Positions 1,960 through 25,559 of a stretch of 25,590 bases of DNA are shown here, in pieces. The DNA lies in IMG/VR virus record IMGVR_UViG_3300018065_000067, positions 1 through 25,590 of that record. One strand, given 5' to 3'. The first letter of the stretch is position 1. Every line of letters starts with the position of its first letter. This DNA is from a virus. The position numbers were made by a program, and so were the translations under genes. The notes under the pieces are model-generated. The model was not told the DNA's origin. It ran no database searches and was given only the letters and a program-made list of their open reading frames with translations.

Positions 1960-2376
1960 TCACCCGTGTTTGAGTAAGTCGAATGCGATGATCAGATCAC
2001 CGTCACCAAAACCAAGTTCCTTTGACGATGTTTCAAAAACACAACCAGGAAGCAATACATTGTGGTTGGAAACCAACGGAAATACATATCTCGTTGTGTC
2101 GTCAATTTGTTCATCGTCAATAGAATCGCCGTTCCTCACTATAGAAATGAAGACACAATTGCTATTGGTTCTGGTCTCGATTATTTTGATGAACGCTGCA
2201 ATCTCTGGCCACGAAAATGGATATCCATATCGCAACGATCCACTGACGTTCTTAACATCACGCTCTACGAATTTCAATAGCGTAATGTGATTTCCTTTTC
2301 CCCAAGCATACTGACGCTCATCAATTTCTTGCGAGATTAGAGTAGTTGGAAATTTGAGTATCTGTTTTTCTGACAT
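1960..2376 (-). CDS. Unknown protein between PRTase-like genes and gene 44
   Basis: Not recognised. The product is about 138 aa starting MSEKQILKFPTTLISQEIDE. It is a mixed alpha/beta-looking soluble protein with an acidic stretch (DSIDDEQIDDTTRY) and a C-terminus ELGFGDGDLIIAFDLLKHG. The ATG at 2376 lies inside the end of the upstream phosphoribosyltransferase-like gene (56-nt overlap). An in-frame start at 2445 would lengthen the overlap further and is less likely. The stop lies just before the start of gene 44. Tight packing with the two upstream PRTase-like genes suggests one inserted cassette that may share a pathway. That is inference from position only. Confidence 0.6.
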   Translation of the reverse strand: MSEKQILKFPTTLISQEIDERQYAWGKGNHITLLKFVERDVKNVSGSLRYGYPFSWPEIAAFIKIIETRTNSNCVFISIVRNGDSIDDEQIDDTTRYVFPLVSNHNVLLPGCVFETSSKELGFGDGDLIIAFDLLKHG

Positions 2377-2971
2377 CAACTGGCTCCCAATATGTCTCAC
2401 GATTGTATTCGAAGTTAAACTCAGATAGCTGAAATAAACCATCAATCTGATTGTTATTTGTGATGATACTGACTTTCTTACAGGTTGCTATCAAACCCAA
2501 TTCACGCAACACGATGCTTTGTGCTCTGTTAATTGAATTTCCTGTGTTGGCAAAATCATCAACGTATATGATAGGAAGATGATTTGGAATGCCTTCTATC
2601 CAATTGAACAAACCGCTCGATTTGCGATCCTTTCTCACCGTGAACGCATTGACGTTGATTCCTCTCGATCTCATCAAATGCCACTGCATGTGCGTTACAA
2701 CAGGAAGGCTTCCAGTTTCCAACCCAACCAACTGAAAAGGTGTTTTTGGAAACATATCATCCATCAATCTCATCACGTGGTTCATCATTTCGATGTTGTG
2801 TGTCAATCTTCGCATAAAGACAATCCAGTCATTGCCAGATACGTTCAAGATTGATGGCGAAAGAACCTTGCCAACAACCTCATCATTATATGCCTTCTCT
2901 GGATTACACCGAAAAATAACCTTTTCATCTATAAACTGTTTGACCAGATTTCGCGTTGATTCATAAGACAT
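2321..2971 (-). CDS. Phosphoribosyltransferase-like protein, copy A
   Basis: Carries a PRPP-binding signature of type I phosphoribosyltransferases: hydrophobic strand, two acidic residues and a small-residue loop (IIYVDDFANTGNS, residues about 134-146). The segment LETGSLPV (about 84-90) resembles the upstream family strand-loop. Such enzymes transfer a ribose phosphate from PRPP to a base or small molecule. The specific substrate cannot be read here. The start at 2971 is favoured by a strong GGAGATA ribosome-binding site just upstream. The protein is about 216 aa. It shares (F/W)IEGIPN..P..(I/V)VDD.AN with the next gene upstream, so the two are tandem paralogues. It could act in nucleotide salvage or base modification, but neither is shown. 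Confidence 0.7.
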   Translation of the reverse strand: MSYESTRNLVKQFIDEKVIFRCNPEKAYNDEVVGKVLSPSILNVSGNDWIVFMRRLTHNIEMMNHVMRLMDDMFPKTPFQLVGLETGSLPVVTHMQWHLMRSRGINVNAFTVRKDRKSSGLFNWIEGIPNHLPIIYVDDFANTGNSINRAQSIVLRELGLIATCKKVSIITNNNQIDGLFQLSEFNFEYNRETYWEPVDVRKTDTQISNYSNLARN

Positions 2972-3543
2972 ATTATCTCCTGTCCAGAATGTGCATCCCA
3001 CAGCATATTACCATTCTTATTCACAATAGCCAAACATTGCTCACAAACCGGCATCTTTCGAGCCAGCAGAAAATCCTTGCAGTAGGAAAAAGCATTCGTC
3101 GAATTTGCCATATCATCAACGATGAGACACGGTTTATCGTTTGGTATGCCTTCTATGAAATTGTGTTTGGCATAACGCTTTCTCGACTCACGTATCCAGA
3201 AATAGTTTACACCAAAGTAACTAGACAATGAGGCAGCAAATGCTATGCCATTTATTTCTCGACAAACGAACTGCACGTTTGGCAAATCAATGTCAGCTTC
3301 TTCCAGAAGAAACCCTAGTGCACGACATACACGAGACATCATAGCCGGATTTGTAGTAAGGTTGGTTAGATAATATTGTCCAAAATATCTATCGCCCGGT
3401 CCTTTACCAAGCATGTCACCATGAGGTGATTCATAATAACAATGCGAACGAATGTACTCAGCAACATCTCTTATAGTTGAAGGAACAACAGACAACCGCT
3501 GATATTCGCGACTGTCTGTCATCCAACTGCCATAGTCCACCAT
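2929..3543 (-). CDS. Phosphoribosyltransferase-like protein, copy B (degenerate PRPP loop)
   Basis: Paralogue of the adjacent downstream gene. It shares the block FIEGIPNDKPCLIVDDMANS (residues about 129-148), where copy A has WIEGIPNHLPIIYVDDFANT. In copy B the PRPP-loop residues after the acidic pair read ANSTNA rather than ANTGNS, losing the glycine typical of the loop. It may therefore bind PRPP poorly or have another role. The ATG at 3543 overlaps the stop codon of the clamp gene by one base (TAATG), so translation is probably coupled to gp45. A 12-codon upstream in-frame extension exists but would overlap gene 45. About 204 aa, overlapping copy A by 43 nt. Possibly the two copies form a heteromer (inference). 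Confidence 0.65.
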   Translation of the reverse strand: MVDYGSWMTDSREYQRLSVVPSTIRDVAEYIRSHCYYESPHGDMLGKGPGDRYFGQYYLTNLTTNPAMMSRVCRALGFLLEEADIDLPNVQFVCREINGIAFAASLSSYFGVNYFWIRESRKRYAKHNFIEGIPNDKPCLIVDDMANSTNAFSYCKDFLLARKMPVCEQCLAIVNKNGNMLWDAHSGQEIICLMNQREIWSNSL

Positions 3544-4211
3544 TACTCGAACGTCGATTTTGCTGACATGATAACCCAATACTCCGCAACTTCACCCTTA
3601 AAATGCACCAGACCATTTCTGTCAATCGTAACATCATAATCGCCTGGAATCATTTTCATGTTGCCGAGGCTCATGATGCAATTGAACGTCTTGTCTGTTT
3701 GACCAAGATTGGCCGAATATGTATCAGACATTCCGTTTTCAATTCGAGTTGACAACGCTTGAATACTGAGTTTTCCGTTATCACCAACAAAGGCAAATTC
3801 AGTGAAACTCATGATACCCATTGCCTTATGAACCTGCTGCCAAACTTCGTCCTTAAGAGTGAATTGCACGTCTTTAGATCGAAGCTTGATTTTCTTGCCA
3901 TCGGGAGGGGCATCGATAAGCCCCTCCGGTGAATACGCATATTTTACTTCAAAGTCCCCTTGCTTGATGATAATACATTCATCACCAAACGTGACATCTG
4001 GATCACCATCACCAAGAGTTAACAGATTGAGAAATTTCTTCAAATCAACGATAGGTATCGTTCTTGGAAATGTTTCTGCTACATCAGCACGAGCGACAAT
4101 CACATCTTGTCGTTGCGTAGTAATAACAGAACCAGCACGCAAAACAATAGACTTGTTGATCGAGTAGAAATTCACCAATATGTCGATAGTCTCTTTCGAT
4201 ATTTTCATCAT
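3543..4211 (-). CDS. 45: Sliding clamp gp45
   Basis: DNA polymerase processivity clamp. In T4 the homotrimeric ring tethers gp43 polymerase and, bound to gp33 and gp55 on RNA polymerase, activates late transcription. The product is 222 aa against 228 in T4. It opens MKISKETIDILVNFYSINKS, ahead of a predicted beta-rich two-domain body, with the middle segment LKKFLNLLTLGDGDPDVTFG typical of the family. Two ATG codons stand in tandem (MM). GAGG is 5 nt before the first and 8 before the second. Gene 45 is 13 nt from the intein-bearing gene upstream and overlaps the next gene by one base. gp33 and gp55 are both encoded in this window, so the full late-activation set is present. Confidence 0.93.
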   Translation of the reverse strand: MMKISKETIDILVNFYSINKSIVLRAGSVITTQRQDVIVARADVAETFPRTIPIVDLKKFLNLLTLGDGDPDVTFGDECIIIKQGDFEVKYAYSPEGLIDAPPDGKKIKLRSKDVQFTLKDEVWQQVHKAMGIMSFTEFAFVGDNGKLSIQALSTRIENGMSDTYSANLGQTDKTFNCIMSLGNMKMIPGDYDVTIDRNGLVHFKGEVAEYWVIMSAKSTFE

Positions 4212-4224
4212 CTAATCCTCGATG

Positions 4225-6267
4225 TTACTTGTTTTCTCGACGCTTTTTCTTCTCACGATTCTTCTGGATTATACCAGCATCCGCAGTCGCCGCAACCCCC
4301 ACAGCAGCCAAATCAGGAAGAGAACCGCCGAAAATGTATGTTCCAACATGGAATGTTTTCATCCAAGGACACAACCATGTTTGTAAACCAGCTTCCTGTA
4401 CGCGCTGACAGAACCAGTAATCCTCTGAAAGATATCTCTTCGAAGTTTTTGCCTTCGAGTCATCATACTCTTTCATGATATCATGAATCTCGGATTCCGA
4501 TTTTGCATTTCGCATTTTTTCAATCAAACGATCCTTATTAGGAGCATCGATGGCAGCCTGAAAATACATCATGATTTCACGTGTGCCGTCGAAATGTTCT
4601 GTGCGCACATGGTCAGGCTTGTACAGCAACTCTGGAAATTTCTTGTTCATGACTTCAAAACATTTGCGCTTGATCATCATGAAACCAGTTCCAATTTCGA
4701 GAACTTCAACAGGCTCACCGATAGGTATACGTTCACCACCAGCCTTTGGATTGAAGACAAAATCACCAACGAATTTTTCAAGTTCATTCGGATCATCATC
4801 AGCAAAACCCTTGTCTACGGCAGCTTTGACTTTTTCCCAAGAGATACAATTGTGCGACACATAATGATTAGCTACAAAATTGAAATTATCAGCAACGCCA
4901 ATATCATACTGATCGCTATTCGTATCATGTGGCTGCACAGAAACCTTCTTAGCACAAATATCCATTGGCGTGAAATCGTATTCATATTTTTCGCCGCCAC
5001 AATGCTCAGAAGGCATTTTATATTCCATCGACTTGATTACATAAGGAGCAATCAATTTGAAGAAATCATTTACGGATACTTGAGCTATGCGAACACGCCA
5101 ACCATTACCACATTTGTTGATACTAGATGAAATACCAAATTTTGTGGCGAGCATATCAACAATAGATTCAACTTCATCGTACTGATAATTATCAGTACAT
5201 AACATTACATGATGTCCTTGTTGATGATTATTCGTCAATGAACCATCATCCATATACCACATAGCCAACGCGCGTTCATCAACCATATGCAATACATTCT
5301 TCAAAGTTTTTTGTGAGGTGAGCAATTCACCAAGACGCGTTACTTGAGCATTCCTCGGACACCACAAATATTCCGCATGATATTCAGTTCCTTTATACTC
5401 ACCGATCATTTTTTGTTCGGAGATTTTACCACCAAATAACTCTTGCTTAAATCTAAGATAGTCTTTCTGATTAACAGAGTGTCCAAATTTCAGATACCCT
5501 TTAATATCAATAGAACCATCACCAAGCAAAGTACCGATCAAACATTGCAACTGATCTTCATTATAGAAGTGATTCTCGTTATTTGTGCCCTCGCGCCTAT
5601 TTGGTTTTCGAGCAACATACAAACCATCACAATCTTTTGCTTCCAACCAAGTTACCTTCGGATTCAGAACATCACGAATAACTGCAAGTTCATGATCCTC
5701 AGTAACTACAAGAGCTTTCTGATTTGTAGCTTGTACTGATACCCAACGTTTTCCGTTTGATGGAAATCTAGAATGACTTATGATCGGCTTCCATTCAAAT
5801 TTATTGGTTTGTGTATTCAGAGACAACACATCACAATACCATTCATTATCAACAATATCGCCAATCTTTTTGAGCCCATCCTTTGTTGAAACTAACGTAT
5901 TTTTATCGTAACTCTTTTTCGGATATGGACCACCCATAATGTCATAATCGCTATCGTCTTCCATCATAGCCAGAATGGCAATAATGTCATTTGCATTAAA
6001 CCCAATGTCGCTGTCAATAAACAACATGTGCGTACAATCACTGCGCATAAATTCATCGCAACAATAATTGCGTGCCCTTGTTATCAACGATTCGTTGAAG
6101 AGAAAATACGGTTGGTGTGCAATGTTCATCCGAGTGAGAAGATTTGTCAATTCCATCATTGACCTTGCATACATCCCTGCACATTGGCCTCCGTACATGG
6201 GAGTTGCAATAAAAAGCTTTCGTTTTTTGGCAAGTTCCTCAATATTAACTTCAAGTTTGAAACCCAT
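4225..6267 (-). CDS. Glycosyltransferase-like protein interrupted by an intein
   Basis: A 680-aa precursor. The host protein (about 325 aa after splicing) looks like a GT-A-fold glycosyltransferase. It starts with a strand KLFIATPMYGG, contains an RARNYCCDEF segment, and has the acidic metal-binding style motif LFIDSDIGF (residues 82-90). After the intein it continues CISWEKVKAAV and a C-terminal part with GTGFMMIKRKCFEVM, LSEDYWFCQRV and TWLCPWMKTFHVG. The reading frame is open across the intein, so a precursor is translated and must self-splice. The likely job is sugar transfer to phage DNA or to a surface molecule, but the acceptor cannot be told. It lies 13 nt upstream of gene 45 in transcription order. 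Confidence 0.8.
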   Translation of the reverse strand: MGFKLEVNIEELAKKRKLFIATPMYGGQCAGMYARSMMELTNLLTRMNIAHQPYFLFNESLITRARNYCCDEFMRSDCTHMLFIDSDIGFNANDIIAILAMMEDDSDYDIMGGPYPKKSYDKNTLVSTKDGLKKIGDIVDNEWYCDVLSLNTQTNKFEWKPIISHSRFPSNGKRWVSVQATNQKALVVTEDHELAVIRDVLNPKVTWLEAKDCDGLYVARKPNRREGTNNENHFYNEDQLQCLIGTLLGDGSIDIKGYLKFGHSVNQKDYLRFKQELFGGKISEQKMIGEYKGTEYHAEYLWCPRNAQVTRLGELLTSQKTLKNVLHMVDERALAMWYMDDGSLTNNHQQGHHVMLCTDNYQYDEVESIVDMLATKFGISSSINKCGNGWRVRIAQVSVNDFFKLIAPYVIKSMEYKMPSEHCGGEKYEYDFTPMDICAKKVSVQPHDTNSDQYDIGVADNFNFVANHYVSHNCISWEKVKAAVDKGFADDDPNELEKFVGDFVFNPKAGGERIPIGEPVEVLEIGTGFMMIKRKCFEVMNKKFPELLYKPDHVRTEHFDGTREIMMYFQAAIDAPNKDRLIEKMRNAKSESEIHDIMKEYDDSKAKTSKRYLSEDYWFCQRVQEAGLQTWLCPWMKTFHVGTYIFGGSLPDLAAVGVAATADAGIIQKNREKKKRRENK
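4849..5913 (-). mobile_element. Intein with LAGLIDADG homing endonuclease
   Basis: In-frame insertion of residues 119-473 (355 aa). The splice junctions read YPKK|SYDKNTLV at the N-side, with Ser1 as first nucleophile, and YVSHN|CISWE at the C-side, with His-Asn ending the intein and Cys as +1 residue. Block B is TEDHEL (189-194), with the Thr-x-x-His catalytic pattern. The two LAGLIDADG helices are CLIGTLLGDGSI (242-253) and ALAMWYMDDGSL (333-344), each with the metal-binding acidic residue. Block F is QYDIGVADNFNFVANHY. All splicing and homing residues look intact, so it is probably active in both. Insertion is directly after a GGPYPKK motif near the glycosyltransferase-like active site, the usual kind of conserved intein target. 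Confidence 0.92.
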
Positions 6268-12082: not shown

Positions 12083-12661
12083 TTATACATCCTCTTCATA
12101 GAAGTCGCTCAATGTAACTCCTGGTTTCAATCTATTGAGTCGTTTGCGCTCTTTTTCCTGTTCCATGTCTCGTTCATATGAAGAAATGTACTGATTGCTG
12201 ATGTCATTCAACTCAGGAGGACATGCGCCTGATTGCCCAGCAAGCTGTTCTTCGATCTGAAAATTTTGGTACGTCTTGTATCTACTATACATGTTCTTGC
12301 GCTCATCCTTGATGCGCTGTTTGAACGTGTTGATAACATACTGTGTGAAGTATGAAAAGGGCCTATTCTTGATTAATTCACCAGTCTCAGGGTCTAAGCG
12401 ATGAGACTTAAAGTTGCGTATGTACTTGACGCAATTAAGTACGCTGTCGCTCTGCATTTCTTCGAGGAATGTGTACTGAGAGAAGTTGGACGCCTTGCCA
12501 ACATTCTTAGCCAGTAGGAGGAAGCAATGTCCCAAAAATTCTGGTATGCGTGGCTGTTCTTCGCCAGCGAGATCAGCTTTGTCACACGCATCTAGATATT
12601 CAACCAGCGCATCATAAAATTCGTCGTTGTTGATATAGTCAGTTCTATGCTTTTTTTTCAT
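12083..12661 (-). CDS. 55: Late-transcription sigma factor gp55
   Basis: Resembles T4 gp55, the small sigma-family protein that directs host RNA polymerase to TATAAATA late promoters. Matching blocks are DYINNDEFYDALVEYL at the start (T4 YVNNKELLQAII), FLGHCFLLLAKNVGKASNFS, and the sigma region 2-like part SVLNCVKYIRNF followed by PFSYFTQYVINTFKQRIKDERK (T4 [22 protein letters not shown]). The C-terminus is LSDFYEEDV, equivalent to the T4 clamp-binding tail SLDFLYE. The ATG at 12661 is preferred because it aligns with the T4 start. An in-frame ATG at 12697 adds 12 residues. Transcription likely starts at the consensus sigma70 promoter about 300 bp upstream, giving a long repeat-containing leader. 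Confidence 0.9.
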   Translation of the reverse strand: MKKKHRTDYINNDEFYDALVEYLDACDKADLAGEEQPRIPEFLGHCFLLLAKNVGKASNFSQYTFLEEMQSDSVLNCVKYIRNFKSHRLDPETGELIKNRPFSYFTQYVINTFKQRIKDERKNMYSRYKTYQNFQIEEQLAGQSGACPPELNDISNQYISSYERDMEQEKERKRLNRLKPGVTLSDFYEEDV

Positions 12662-12730
12662 AAACGGTTTTCTCACCAAAATCCCAAGACTGTACAAATG
12701 CTACACTAGTTATCTCAACTAGTGAACTCA

Positions 12731-12853
12731 ACTAGTATATTTCAAAGATGTTACACTAATCAGTTAACCTAACTAGTATATTTCAAAGATGTTACACTAA
12801 TCAGTTAACCTAACTAGTATATTTCAAAGATGTTACACTAATCAGTTAACCTA
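12731..12853. repeat. Three tandem 41-bp direct repeats
   Basis: The unit begins ACTAGTATATTTCAAAG and continues to CAGTTAACCTA. It is repeated at 12731, 12772 and 12813 with an exact 41-bp period. A partial flanking copy (ACTAGTGAACTCA, then ACTAGTATAT) lies on either side. Each unit carries the palindromes ACTAGT and GTTAAC. There are no variable spacers, so it is not a CRISPR array. Confidence 0.95.
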
Positions 12854-12962
12854 ACTAGTGAACTCAACTAGTATATTTTTCAAACTGGTTATTGACACTA
12901 GTGTATCAACTGGTGTAACTTGTTGATTAACTAATAGGTATCTAACCTGTTTTCCTAAGTAC

Positions 12963-12991
12963 ATTATACTAATTTCAAAAACAGGTGTCAA
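12963..12991 (-). promoter_or_regulatory. Perfect sigma70 promoter for gene 55
   Basis: On the minus strand TTGACA (12991-12986), a 17-bp spacer and TATAAT (12968-12963). Both hexamers are exact consensus with optimal spacing, so host RNA polymerase should use it strongly from the start of infection. Transcription would begin near 12956 and run through the repeats into gene 55. Confidence 0.85.
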
Positions 12992-15345: not shown

Positions 15346-15546
15346 ATGTTTGCAATCAAAGTCATCTTTGAAGATTCATATTTGTATGTAATGAGTGATG
15401 CAGAAAGTGAATTGCCTATGATGTTCGAAACCAAAGAGTTGGCAGAAAAACATGCCAATCTCTGGATCACAGACAACACGCCAGATAATTTTGCTATCGT
15501 CGTTCCATATCCTATGGATATGCTGGAACCCAAAAAAGAGTCTTAG
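15346..15546 (+). CDS. Unknown small protein after uvsY (66 aa)
   Basis: MFAIKVIFEDSYLYVMSDAE followed by MMFETKELAEKHANLWITDN and FAIVVPYPMDMLEP. This looks like a small alpha/beta protein with two strand pairs around a helix, a common type of small T4-like phage protein with unknown role. The ATG at 15346 follows the uvsY stop by one base and has GGAG 6 nt upstream, so it is preferred over the upstream in-frame ATG at 15316 that would overlap uvsY. Its stop overlaps the convergent HNH gene. Confidence 0.65.
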   Translation: MFAIKVIFEDSYLYVMSDAESELPMMFETKELAEKHANLWITDNTPDNFAIVVPYPMDMLEPKKES

Positions 15547-16067
15547 GGGCCTTCCATGAGCATTTTGATAAACGGAAGAAATTGTTCTTCTGTAAAATCG
15601 TTTTTTGCGATGTTAATAGAATAGCAAACAAATTGAACATTTCCTTTTACATATCCATTTGAAGAATCAATGCGATCTAATGATGCAAGATTGGGCTGTT
15701 TTTTGCTATTCCATTTTGGTTTGATCATTGGTATTTTGGTGTAAGAACACAAACCATTTTGTTTTTCCCATATCTCTATAAGATAGTCATCATCGATGTC
15801 AAATGGTTTGCCAGCTTTCTTTGCTCGTGTTCTACAACGTTTCAATATTTCCGCGAATTCTCCCTTTTTACTATATTGATTTCCCCACTGAGAAGCGGGA
15901 ACTCTTCTAGTTGTATGAAATCGATTTGCATGACTTGATGTGCAAGATCGGCTACAAAAAAATCTATCCACTGGACGACCATTTTTCACCTTTCTTCTGA
16001 ATTCCTTAGTCTTTAGACTAAATTCTTTTTGACATTCGTAACATTTCATTGGCATGGTACTTGACAT
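15543..16067 (-). CDS. HNH endonuclease, probable homing type
   Basis: The protein is about 174 aa. The N-terminus has a zinc-ribbon-like CYEC...CSRSC arrangement (residues about 9-42). The C-terminus has an HNH-type core: GLCSYTKIPM, then LASLDRIDSSNGYVKGNVQFVC, the pattern of phage group I intron-type and freestanding HNH endonucleases. It is the only minus-strand gene in an otherwise plus-strand region and overlaps its convergent neighbour, typical of a mobile endonuclease gene. The ATG at 16067 has AGGAGA 6 nt upstream. A longer reading from 16097 would run across the tmRNA late promoter. The likely target is a nearby site, such as the tmRNA or uvsY region in phages lacking the gene (inference). 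Confidence 0.85.
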   Translation of the reverse strand: MSSTMPMKCYECQKEFSLKTKEFRRKVKNGRPVDRFFCSRSCTSSHANRFHTTRRVPASQWGNQYSKKGEFAEILKRCRTRAKKAGKPFDIDDDYLIEIWEKQNGLCSYTKIPMIKPKWNSKKQPNLASLDRIDSSNGYVKGNVQFVCYSINIAKNDFTEEQFLPFIKMLMEGP

Positions 16068-16083
16068 CTGAAATCTCCTGGTA

Positions 16084-16091
16084 TATAAATA
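16084..16091 (+). promoter_or_regulatory. T4-type late promoter for tmRNA
   Basis: Exact TATAAATA, the late-promoter box recognised by gp55-RNA polymerase. Transcription is expected to begin about 6-8 nt downstream, immediately before the tmRNA acceptor piece. gp55, gp33 and gp45 genes are all in this window. Confidence 0.8.
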
Positions 16092-16097
16092 GAACAC

Positions 16098-16363
16098 TGA
16101 CGCTTGAGACTGCTGTTGAAGCAGACCAGACAGGATGTGCGACTCATCCTCGCCTCCACCAAAAGCTCATATAGTTTCGATTATGTGAGTTTCTGGGGGG
16201 CGCGTAGGATCGATGGATGTGGATAGAGTATAGTCGATGTTGGTCGGTATGGCAAGCACCGTTATCGCGGCTCACAACTAGATGCAAACGATAATGCACC
16301 TATTGCTTTGGCTGCATAGCTAAGCGGGGTTTGGTGGTTTCCCTGGCAACAGAAAAACCACCA
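16098..16363 (+). ncRNA. ssrA: Circularly permuted (two-piece) tmRNA
   Basis: tmRNA rescues stalled ribosomes and tags the aborted peptide for proteolysis. The acceptor piece comes first. It has a hairpin CTGCT/AGCAG, a T-arm-like AGGATG(TGCGACT)CATCCT, then CGCCTCC-ACCA ending at 16161. A 34-nt spacer (16162-16195) folds into an 8-bp hairpin (CTCATATA/TATGTGAG) and is expected to be cut out. The coding piece starts GGGGGCG at 16196. It pairs with CGCCTCC in 7 bp, with a G-U at exactly the third pair, the alanine-tRNA identity element. GGATCGATGG corresponds to the conserved D-loop analogue. UAGAU precedes the resume codon. The tag frame 16284-16319 reads ANDNAPIALAA-stop, close to E. coli ANDENYALAA. 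A 9-bp hairpin closes the end. Exact RNA ends are estimated. Confidence 0.93.
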
Positions 16364-16367
16364 TTTT
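16332..16367 (+). terminator. Hairpin at end of tmRNA coding piece
   Basis: TGGTGGTTT pairs perfectly with AAACCACCA (9 bp, 14-nt loop) and is followed by TTTT, whose last T is the first base of tRNA-Asn. It may be a terminal tmRNA helix, a processing signal or a leaky terminator. The tRNA start directly at its foot suggests processing rather than full termination. Confidence 0.45.
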
Positions 16368-16441
16368 CTACCTAACGCACAAGGTGTGCGGCAGCACTGT
16401 TAATGCTTGTGAGCTTGGTTCGATTCCAAGAGGTAGAGCCA
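16367..16441 (+). tRNA. tRNA-Asn (GTT)
   Basis: Cloverleaf: acceptor TCTACCT/AGGTAGA (7 bp), D-stem CGCA/TGCG, anticodon loop CTGTTAA with anticodon GTT and U33, T-arm CTTGG(TTCGATT)CCAAG, discriminator G and an encoded CCA. One mismatch closes the outer end of the anticodon stem (C-T). It probably decodes AAC/AAU, which is abundant in this AT-rich genome. Confidence 0.93.
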
Positions 16442-25114: not shown

Positions 25115-25369
25115 ATGAAAAATAAGATGCTTGGAGAACAAACTAGGGACCAAGTCTGGTGGCACGTTGATAAACAAGCCAAGAGGCAAGTCGCGTGGCA
25201 ATTCTTGCGACACGTTGATTGGCCAATAGATTGGAAAATAAGACAGCAAGTCGAGGATCGAGTCAGGCAGCAAGTCAGGCAGCAAGTCTGGCGGCAAGTT
25301 TGGTGGCAAGCCAGACAACGTGTCTGGATGCAAGCATGGGATCAGCTAGAAAATGATTATGATGAGTGA
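25115..25369 (+). CDS. Tetrapeptide-repeat (x-Q-V-x) protein, first in array
   Basis: 84 aa, almost entirely tandem four-residue units with Gln/His/Arg at the second and Val/Ala/Ile at the third place, for example RQQV-RQQV-WRQV-WWQA. About 17 units are followed by an acidic end (LENDYDE). Very rich in Trp, Gln, Arg and Val with no cysteine, glycine-poor and no signal peptide. In DNA the repeat is 12 nt long (forms of AGGCAGCAAGTC). GAGAGA directly precedes the ATG. The ORF ends in a short overlap with the next paralogue. Function unknown. Such regular patterns may form an elongated helix or an assembly scaffold, but that is speculation. Confidence 0.6.
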   Translation: MKNKMLGEQTRDQVWWHVDKQAKRQVAWQFLRHVDWPIDWKIRQQVEDRVRQQVRQQVWRQVWWQARQRVWMQAWDQLENDYDE

Positions 25370-25540
25370 AGAACGAATCGAGCAGCAAATCTGGCGGCAA
25401 GTTGAGTGGCAATCCGGGCGGCAAATTGAGCAGCAAGTTCATTGGCACGTCGAAGGGGAATGCTGGTGGCAACTCGGGGAGCCAGTTTTGCAGCAAGTCG
25501 GGTGGCAAGTCGATGATCAAGTCAGGAAGCAATTGAGAGA
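25131..25540 (+). repeat. Imperfect 12-nt tandem repeats coding for the tetrapeptide units
   Basis: Repeated 12-base units around GGCAGCAAGTCT and GGCGGCAAGTTG run through both complete array genes. Because 12 is a multiple of 3, several other frames on both strands are also open. Those are not genes. Confidence 0.8.
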
Positions 25541-25559
25541 AGAGTATCATGATAAGTAA
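25353..25559 (+). CDS. Tetrapeptide-repeat protein, second in array
   Basis: 68 aa. Starts MMSEERIEQQIWRQVEWQ (ATG choices at 25353, 25359 and 25362) and continues with the same x-Q-V-x units: RQIEQQVHWHV, QQVGWQVDDQV, and an acidic end REEYHDK, much like the end of the first copy. It overlaps the first copy by 17 nt and the third by 11 nt, consistent with translational coupling. Confidence 0.55.
   Translation: MIMMSEERIEQQIWRQVEWQSGRQIEQQVHWHVEGECWWQLGEPVLQQVGWQVDDQVRKQLREEYHDK

Follow-up and report, generated by a model that had tools for sequence, protein, structure and literature searches.

A phage two-piece tmRNA gene and its predicted hybrid early/late promoter

The T4-like phage Melnitz, which infects OM43 methylotrophs, carries a two-piece tmRNA of the alphaproteobacterial type that was described in 2022, together with a count of 53 two-piece tmRNAs among 18,146 phage genomes, 50 of the 53 being marine or aquatic (PMC9004378). 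Early expression of the Melnitz gene was proposed on the basis of a program-predicted sigma70 promoter (PMC9004378). A tmRNA database of 2025 holds 79 bacteriophage tmRNA sequences (PMC11915505), and a one-piece mycobacteriophage tmRNA is listed in a phage of cluster C1 (PMC13097058). Phage two-piece tmRNA has been known since 2022, and the gene reported here is not the first of its kind.

The late promoter box of T4 lies at -13 to -6 (PMC1524935), and T4-like phages that lack MotA have been proposed to replace the middle mode of transcription by early and late promoters that overlap (PMC2984593). In T4-infected E. coli, host SsrA is among four host transcripts that remain stable, host tRNAs are degraded, and host tmRNA has been suggested to be needed throughout infection (PMC9697503). 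These observations touch on the phage need for trans-translation and its timing: the sole published account of a phage two-piece tmRNA places it early, from a promoter program, and a preliminary description of the locus analysed here placed it late, from the element TATAAATA.

Anatomy of the tmRNA gene and its genomic setting

The DNA analysed (the window, meaning the whole stretch) is an IMG/VR virus record of 25,590 bases with 40% G+C. The preliminary description had proposed that it encodes a permuted two-piece tmRNA, and had suggested a search with the alpha-tmRNA covariance model. That search gave a match above the cut-off (RF01849 alpha_tmRNA, 16057-16365, + strand, 92.6 bits against a cut-off of 50, E = 2.8e-24), as did the RF04321 tmRNA_permuted model (16096-16319, 82.4 bits against 47), and both scores bear the proposal out. 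The gene has the permuted layout, in which a CCA-bearing acceptor piece is followed by a spacer and then by the coding piece. The acceptor piece (16096-16161, +, its start being that of the RF04321 match) closes with the 3' half of the acceptor stem, CGCCTCC (16151-16157), and an encoded ACCA (16158-16161), both read from the sequence and from the RF01849 and RF04321 alignments. The intervening spacer of 34 nt (16162-16195, +), delimited by model alignment, takes a hairpin form in a computed fold. The coding piece (16196-16363, +) was placed from the sequence and the Rfam alignments, with its 3' end set at the closing hairpin GGTGGTTT/AAAACCACC (16333-16362, +); the RF01849 match reaches 16365.

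As read from the sequence, GGGGGCG at the start of the coding piece (16196-16202) pairs with CGCCTCC in an acceptor stem of 7 bp that includes G3-U70. A tag frame (16284-16319, +; from the sequence and by script) begins with the resume codon GCA (16284-16286) in the context TAGAT-GCA and runs for 11 codons, encoding ANDNAPIALAA, a short tag ending in small non-polar residues, up to the stop TAG (16317-16319). The acceptor pairing with G3-U70, the CCA end at 16161, the hairpin spacer of a removable type and the resume context with its tag had all been noted in the preliminary description, and each is present in the sequence. Removal of the spacer is predicted, and by analogy with known two-piece tmRNAs its excision would be expected to leave two RNA pieces. 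The outermost helix of the RF04321 model is formed by the first nucleotides of the acceptor piece together with the coding piece; in a covariation test of this helix, own pairs scored 5.12 and swapped pairs 4.71, with the best of 100 swaps at 5.09, a marginal difference that is not counted as support for the helix. Over 5,541 bases, the tmRNA gene among them, a second contig of this phage (L122) matches the window at 100% identity, which makes an error of assembly an unlikely source of the sequence.

The permuted order, T-domain, acceptor stem and ANDN tag start are common to the window gene and alphaproteobacterial ssrA (RF01849; for example that of Caulobacter), whereas in the bacteria the 5' part of the gene is longer, with one more hairpin, and a TATAAATA promoter is absent. 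Mycobacteriophage tmRNAs are phage-encoded, as in the window, but do not stand under a T4 late promoter, and the one-piece tmRNAs of mycobacteriophages are not permuted. The Melnitz SsrA gene (MZ577097.1, 45984-46436) is, like that of the window, a two-piece gene of the alphaproteobacterial type in a T4-like phage, with the same promoter, TTGACA-N17-TATAAATA, and a tag, ANDNYVPVDYALAA, that likewise ends in ALAA. The two differ in that the Melnitz spacer is much longer, that no adjoining tRNA is annotated in Melnitz while a tRNA-Asn gene lies one base on in the window, and that a glutamine riboswitch (RF01739) directly follows the Melnitz tmRNA (confirmed here at 1604-1652 of the Melnitz locus L319, 52.8 bits) and is absent from the window in an Rfam search. 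The nearest tag among the matches listed, ANDNAPIAMALAA, belongs to IMGVR_UViG_3300025410_000589, in which the promoter is again hybrid (TTGACT-N17-TATAAATA); unlike the window gene, this relative has a spacer of 95 nt and a T-stem of 5 bp. A tag is encoded by most of the examined relatives with a hybrid promoter, in many cases with ALAA at its end. Four tmRNA-like phage loci (L052, L060, L091 and L104) carry an unusually long tag, ANDNALSNVTFVDFSAPVTAVNEDFALAA.

A T4-like gene set surrounds the tmRNA gene, including a RegA-like translation repressor, the gp44 clamp loader, gp45, gp55, a UvsW helicase, gp32 and a baseplate wedge protein. The gp55-type late sigma factor, which reads TATAAATA, is encoded at 12083-12697 (-; phrog_234, E = 2.2e-38), and the gp45-type sliding clamp, a co-factor of late transcription in T4, at 3543-4211 (-; phrog_223, E = 9e-58). 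When the gp55 sequence was used as a query against viral contigs, the only match was the second contig of the same phage. A divergent gene of the endonuclease VII/HNH type (15543-16067, -; phrog_3322, E = 6.7e-31) lies upstream of the tmRNA gene, and its ATG, as read from the sequence, overlaps the -35 element described below. SmpB was found neither in the window nor in 30 phage records.

The promoter in the window and in phage relatives

An exact TATAAATA (16084-16091, +) precedes the tmRNA gene; it is both a late promoter element of the T4 type and a sigma70 -10 element (TATAAA). Exactly 17 nt before it stands a perfect -35 element, TTGACA (16061-16066, +), which the preliminary description had overlooked. 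The resulting TTGACA-N17-TATAAA agrees with the sigma70 consensus at 11 of 12 positions, the last base of the -10 being the one that deviates, with the consensus assumed to suit the host. TATAAATA occurs four times in the window against 0.93 expected, and TTGACA-N15-19-TATAA would be expected 0.18 times in the whole of it. By analogy with the position of the box at T4 late promoters, transcription is predicted to start at 16097, the second base of the RF04321 match; gp55 is encoded in this genome, and the distance from TATAAATA to that start, about 6-13 nt, is that of a T4-type late promoter. The site at 16061-16091 escaped an early-promoter scan that accepts nothing but T as the last base of the -10.

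BLASTN of the window tmRNA against 50,697 phage records returned no real relative (best E of about 1), and relatives were for this reason gathered by DNA patterns. Viral contigs, mostly fragments, were selected by T-arm and acceptor-stem patterns that do not touch the promoter and that pick acceptors ending in CGCCTCC-ACCA. After dereplication at 80%, TATAAATA was found exactly at the tmRNA promoter position in 113 of 187 relatives among the matches listed, shared ancestry remaining, so that counts of loci are not counts of independent events. In 89 of these 113 loci, among the matches listed, it overlaps a sigma70-like promoter, most often at an offset of 0 (73 loci), followed by +5 (8) and +3 (7). 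At the 73 offset-0 loci a single box would serve both promoters, and at 16 more, again among the matches listed, TATAAATA and the -10 are distinct, 3, 5 or 7 nt out of register. Neither element is universal, since an exact TATAAATA is missing from 74 of the 187 loci and stands without a sigma70-like partner in 21, and at 54 neither is recognisable (all among the matches listed).

With a looser definition (at least 7 of 8 positions of TATAAATA and at least 5 of 6 of TTGACA, 16-18 nt apart), the hybrid promoter was present at 84 of 188 dereplicated loci, with a spacer of 17 nt in 76 of the 84 (among the matches listed); in shuffled upstream sequence it arose in 0.2%. When 120 loci among the matches listed were aligned on TATAAATA, two blocks stood out as conserved, CTTGACA at positions -37 to -31 and a TG directly ahead of the -10 that resembles an extended -10 promoter, with little conservation between them. 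All five of the hybrid-bearing contigs of at least 100 kb that were searched (L044, L162, L165, L182 and L183) encode gp55. The possibility that the -35 is imposed by the start codon of the divergent gene was rejected, as the element is kept where the upstream genes differ.

A plain late promoter neither needs nor conserves a -35, and the window promoter is not of that kind because TTGACA at 17 nt is kept in relatives. Transcription by gp55 polymerase after replication only, with TTGACA present by chance or as part of the start of the divergent gene, would agree with the exact TATAAATA, with the presence of gp55 and gp45 in the contig, and with the 21 relatives, among the matches listed, that have TATAAATA and no sigma70-like partner. 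We nevertheless regard a purely late promoter as improbable, given the conservation of the -35 at exact spacing across loci with differing upstream genes and the low frequency of the hybrid in shuffled sequence. Nor do most other late promoters in these phages have the -35: in a first set of loci, among the matches listed, a -35 accompanied 24 of 34 TATAAATA elements at tmRNA genes versus 4 of 79 other TATAAATA sites on the same contigs. Across 17 phage records, about 178 TATAAATA sites were found, TTGACW-N16-18-TATAAATA occurring at 18, of which 12 are tmRNA promoters by position.

The converse view, that of the Melnitz authors, is that of an early promoter alone, a sigma70 -10 that happens to read TATAAATA. 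It has in its favour the near-consensus -35, the 17-nt spacer and the TG resembling an extended -10, as well as the published early call (PMC9004378). Set against these are the other early promoters of Melnitz, which end in T (TATAxT), with TATAAATA in one exception; the full 8-mer in register at the 73 loci and shifted at the 16 others (among the matches listed); and the host genes, in which TATAAATA was never seen at the ssrA promoter position, whether in 84 dereplicated host promoters (0 of 84) or in 385 alphaproteobacterial genomes (0 of 385, of which 249 match the T-arm/acceptor pattern, some by chance). An exclusively early promoter therefore seems to us rather unlikely; were it correct, late transcription should be indifferent to loss of gp55 or to a change of TATAAATA to TATAATGC. 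The host counts also led to rejection of the idea that TATAAATA is the ordinary -10 of host ssrA genes.

The complete Melnitz genome gives a similar picture. A -35 is lacking at 23 of its 25 TATAAATA sites, which precede structural genes, many of them directly (for example those for the major capsid protein and the tail sheath), and all 32 other near-consensus sigma70 sites have T, not A, at the last -10 position. Only two hybrids were found in Melnitz, at the tmRNA and at gene 15 (hypothetical). The gene 15 hybrid promoter lies at 12133-12163, and at gp32 (48660-48692) a TTGACT-N17-TATTAT runs into TATAAATA; both genes are candidates, from their promoter motifs, for the same early-and-late class. 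A BLASTN search with the Melnitz tmRNA did not recover Mosig or AG-345-P14, two further phages named in PMC9004378.

The late promoter of the preliminary description can accordingly be kept in part. Its element is real and specific to phages, being present in 113 of 187 relatives (among the matches listed) versus none of the 385 alphaproteobacterial genomes, but with a perfect TTGACA at 17 nt the promoter is not simply late and is equally of the sigma70 type. Because this -35 is conserved at tmRNA genes, the proposed late takeover of ribosome rescue should be reworded as a tmRNA supplied early and late.

Predicted expression and role

We consider it likely, from the sequence evidence, that the window encodes a functional two-piece tmRNA of the alphaproteobacterial type whose transcription is driven by a hybrid early/late promoter. 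Shortly after the phage enters, sigma70-bearing host RNA polymerase would read TTGACA-N17-TATAAA, and once replication has begun, polymerase with gp55 and the gp45 clamp would read the same TATAAATA. Both transcripts would start at about 16097, the first nucleotide of the acceptor piece, and 5' trimming would for that reason be unnecessary. By analogy with known two-piece tmRNAs, two cuts in the precursor, one at either end of the hairpin spacer and presumably made by host enzymes, would then yield a CCA-ending acceptor piece and a coding piece, with the tRNA-Asn freed from the same transcript. Alanyl-tRNA synthetase would charge the tmRNA through G3-U70, and host EF-Tu and SmpB would use it, SmpB delivering it to ribosomes stalled on broken mRNA. 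The rescued product would carry ANDNAPIALAA, the ALAA end of which fits host ClpXP, and would be degraded by host proteases. For the phage, the benefit may be a steady rescue of ribosomes during shut-off of host transcription and degradation of mRNA.

Overlaps in RB49, S-PM2 and Syn9, which lack MotA, similarly place an early sigma70-like and a late TATAAATA promoter over one gene (PMC2984593). There they serve protein genes of the middle class, whereas here the gene is for an RNA and the two promoters are mostly fused in one box. The sequence elements of this overlapping type, as in RB49 and S-PM2, are present at the window tmRNA, and activity in both phases is predicted. The promoter comparisons suggest that phage two-piece tmRNA genes are widely marked by a hybrid early/late promoter, a finding that appears to be new with respect to the literature searched.

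More tentatively, and with less than even confidence, we suggest that MotA-less T4-like phages possess a class of hybrid promoters in which one TATAAATA box serves both sigma70 and gp55, that phage tmRNA is its main user, and that this tmRNA is expressed from entry to lysis and ribosome rescue limits growth throughout. If this were so, tmRNA would be one of few phage genes that are on for the whole of that period, and phage growth would be limited by ribosome rescue at every stage of infection. TTGACA-N17-TATAAATA would offer a simple signature of early-and-late genes in such phages. The conservation of both elements together in dozens of phage lineages leads to the prediction of one start, used before and after replication, and Melnitz, a cultured isolate with the same promoter, makes this early-plus-late prediction practical to test.

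The gene might instead be a passenger with no role, picked up from a host through integration at ssrA; this is a common site of integration, and the possibility was raised for phage tmRNA (PMC9004378). With a phage-specific promoter, a 5' end shorter than in host genes and tags that are conserved over dozens of phage lineages in which the sequence has diverged, we hold capture without function to be extremely unlikely.

T-arm, adjoining tRNA and other features of the window

The T-arm of the window copy (16132-16150, +), AGGATG-TGCGACT-CATCCT, has a 7-nt loop on a stem of 6 bp, as read from the sequence, and the Rfam alignment needs an inserted pair to accommodate it. Permuted tmRNAs are expected to have a T-stem of 5 bp, as the relatives do, and no 6-bp T-stem was seen in relatives among the matches listed; it is a feature of the window relative to alphaproteobacterial ssrA as well. 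Membership of the tmRNA family rests on the other features, as the models score well above their cut-offs despite this stem. ARAGORN, which calls a permuted tmRNA in most hybrid-promoter relatives, did not call that of the window, likely because of the 6-bp stem. Together with the acceptor stem, it makes a stack of 13 bp, and use by EF-Tu or SmpB could perhaps be weakened. The acceptor/T-arm stack of bacterial tRNA-Sec is equally long, at 13 bp.

The odd T-arm, and the failure to find a phage SmpB in 30 records, would suit a decoy, an RNA that competes with host tmRNA and lowers trans-translation, and in E. coli, expression of a tag-less tmRNA from mycobacteriophage DS6A does inhibit the host tmRNA (PMC11915505). 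A decoy would, however, need no tag frame, stop codon or G3-U70, all of which are intact here, with the tag intact in most relatives as well, and we think a decoy role very unlikely.

ARAGORN places a tRNA-Asn (GUU) gene with an encoded CCA at 16367-16441 (+), directly after the tmRNA, with which it is probably co-transcribed; this gene, too, had escaped the preliminary description.

Elsewhere in the window, a perfect TTGACA-N17-TATAAT (12964-12991, -) lies about 270 nt upstream of gp55, as would fit a late sigma factor that is itself expressed early. Just upstream of gp55 there is also a tandem repeat of about 41 nt (12730-12859), the copy number or arrangement of which differs in the second contig of the same phage. 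Judged by eye from its translation, an ORF of 680 aa (4225-6267, -) has the look of a glycosyltransferase interrupted by an intein, which would extend from about SYDKNTLVSTKDGLKKIGDI to NFVANHYVSHN followed by C. Two adjacent, related ORFs (2321-3579, -) contain, also by eye, the phosphoribosyltransferase-like motifs YVDDFANTGNS and LIVDDMANSTNA. At the right end of the contig, two ORFs (25115-25559, +) consist of short repeats rich in RQVWWQV/RQVEWQ.
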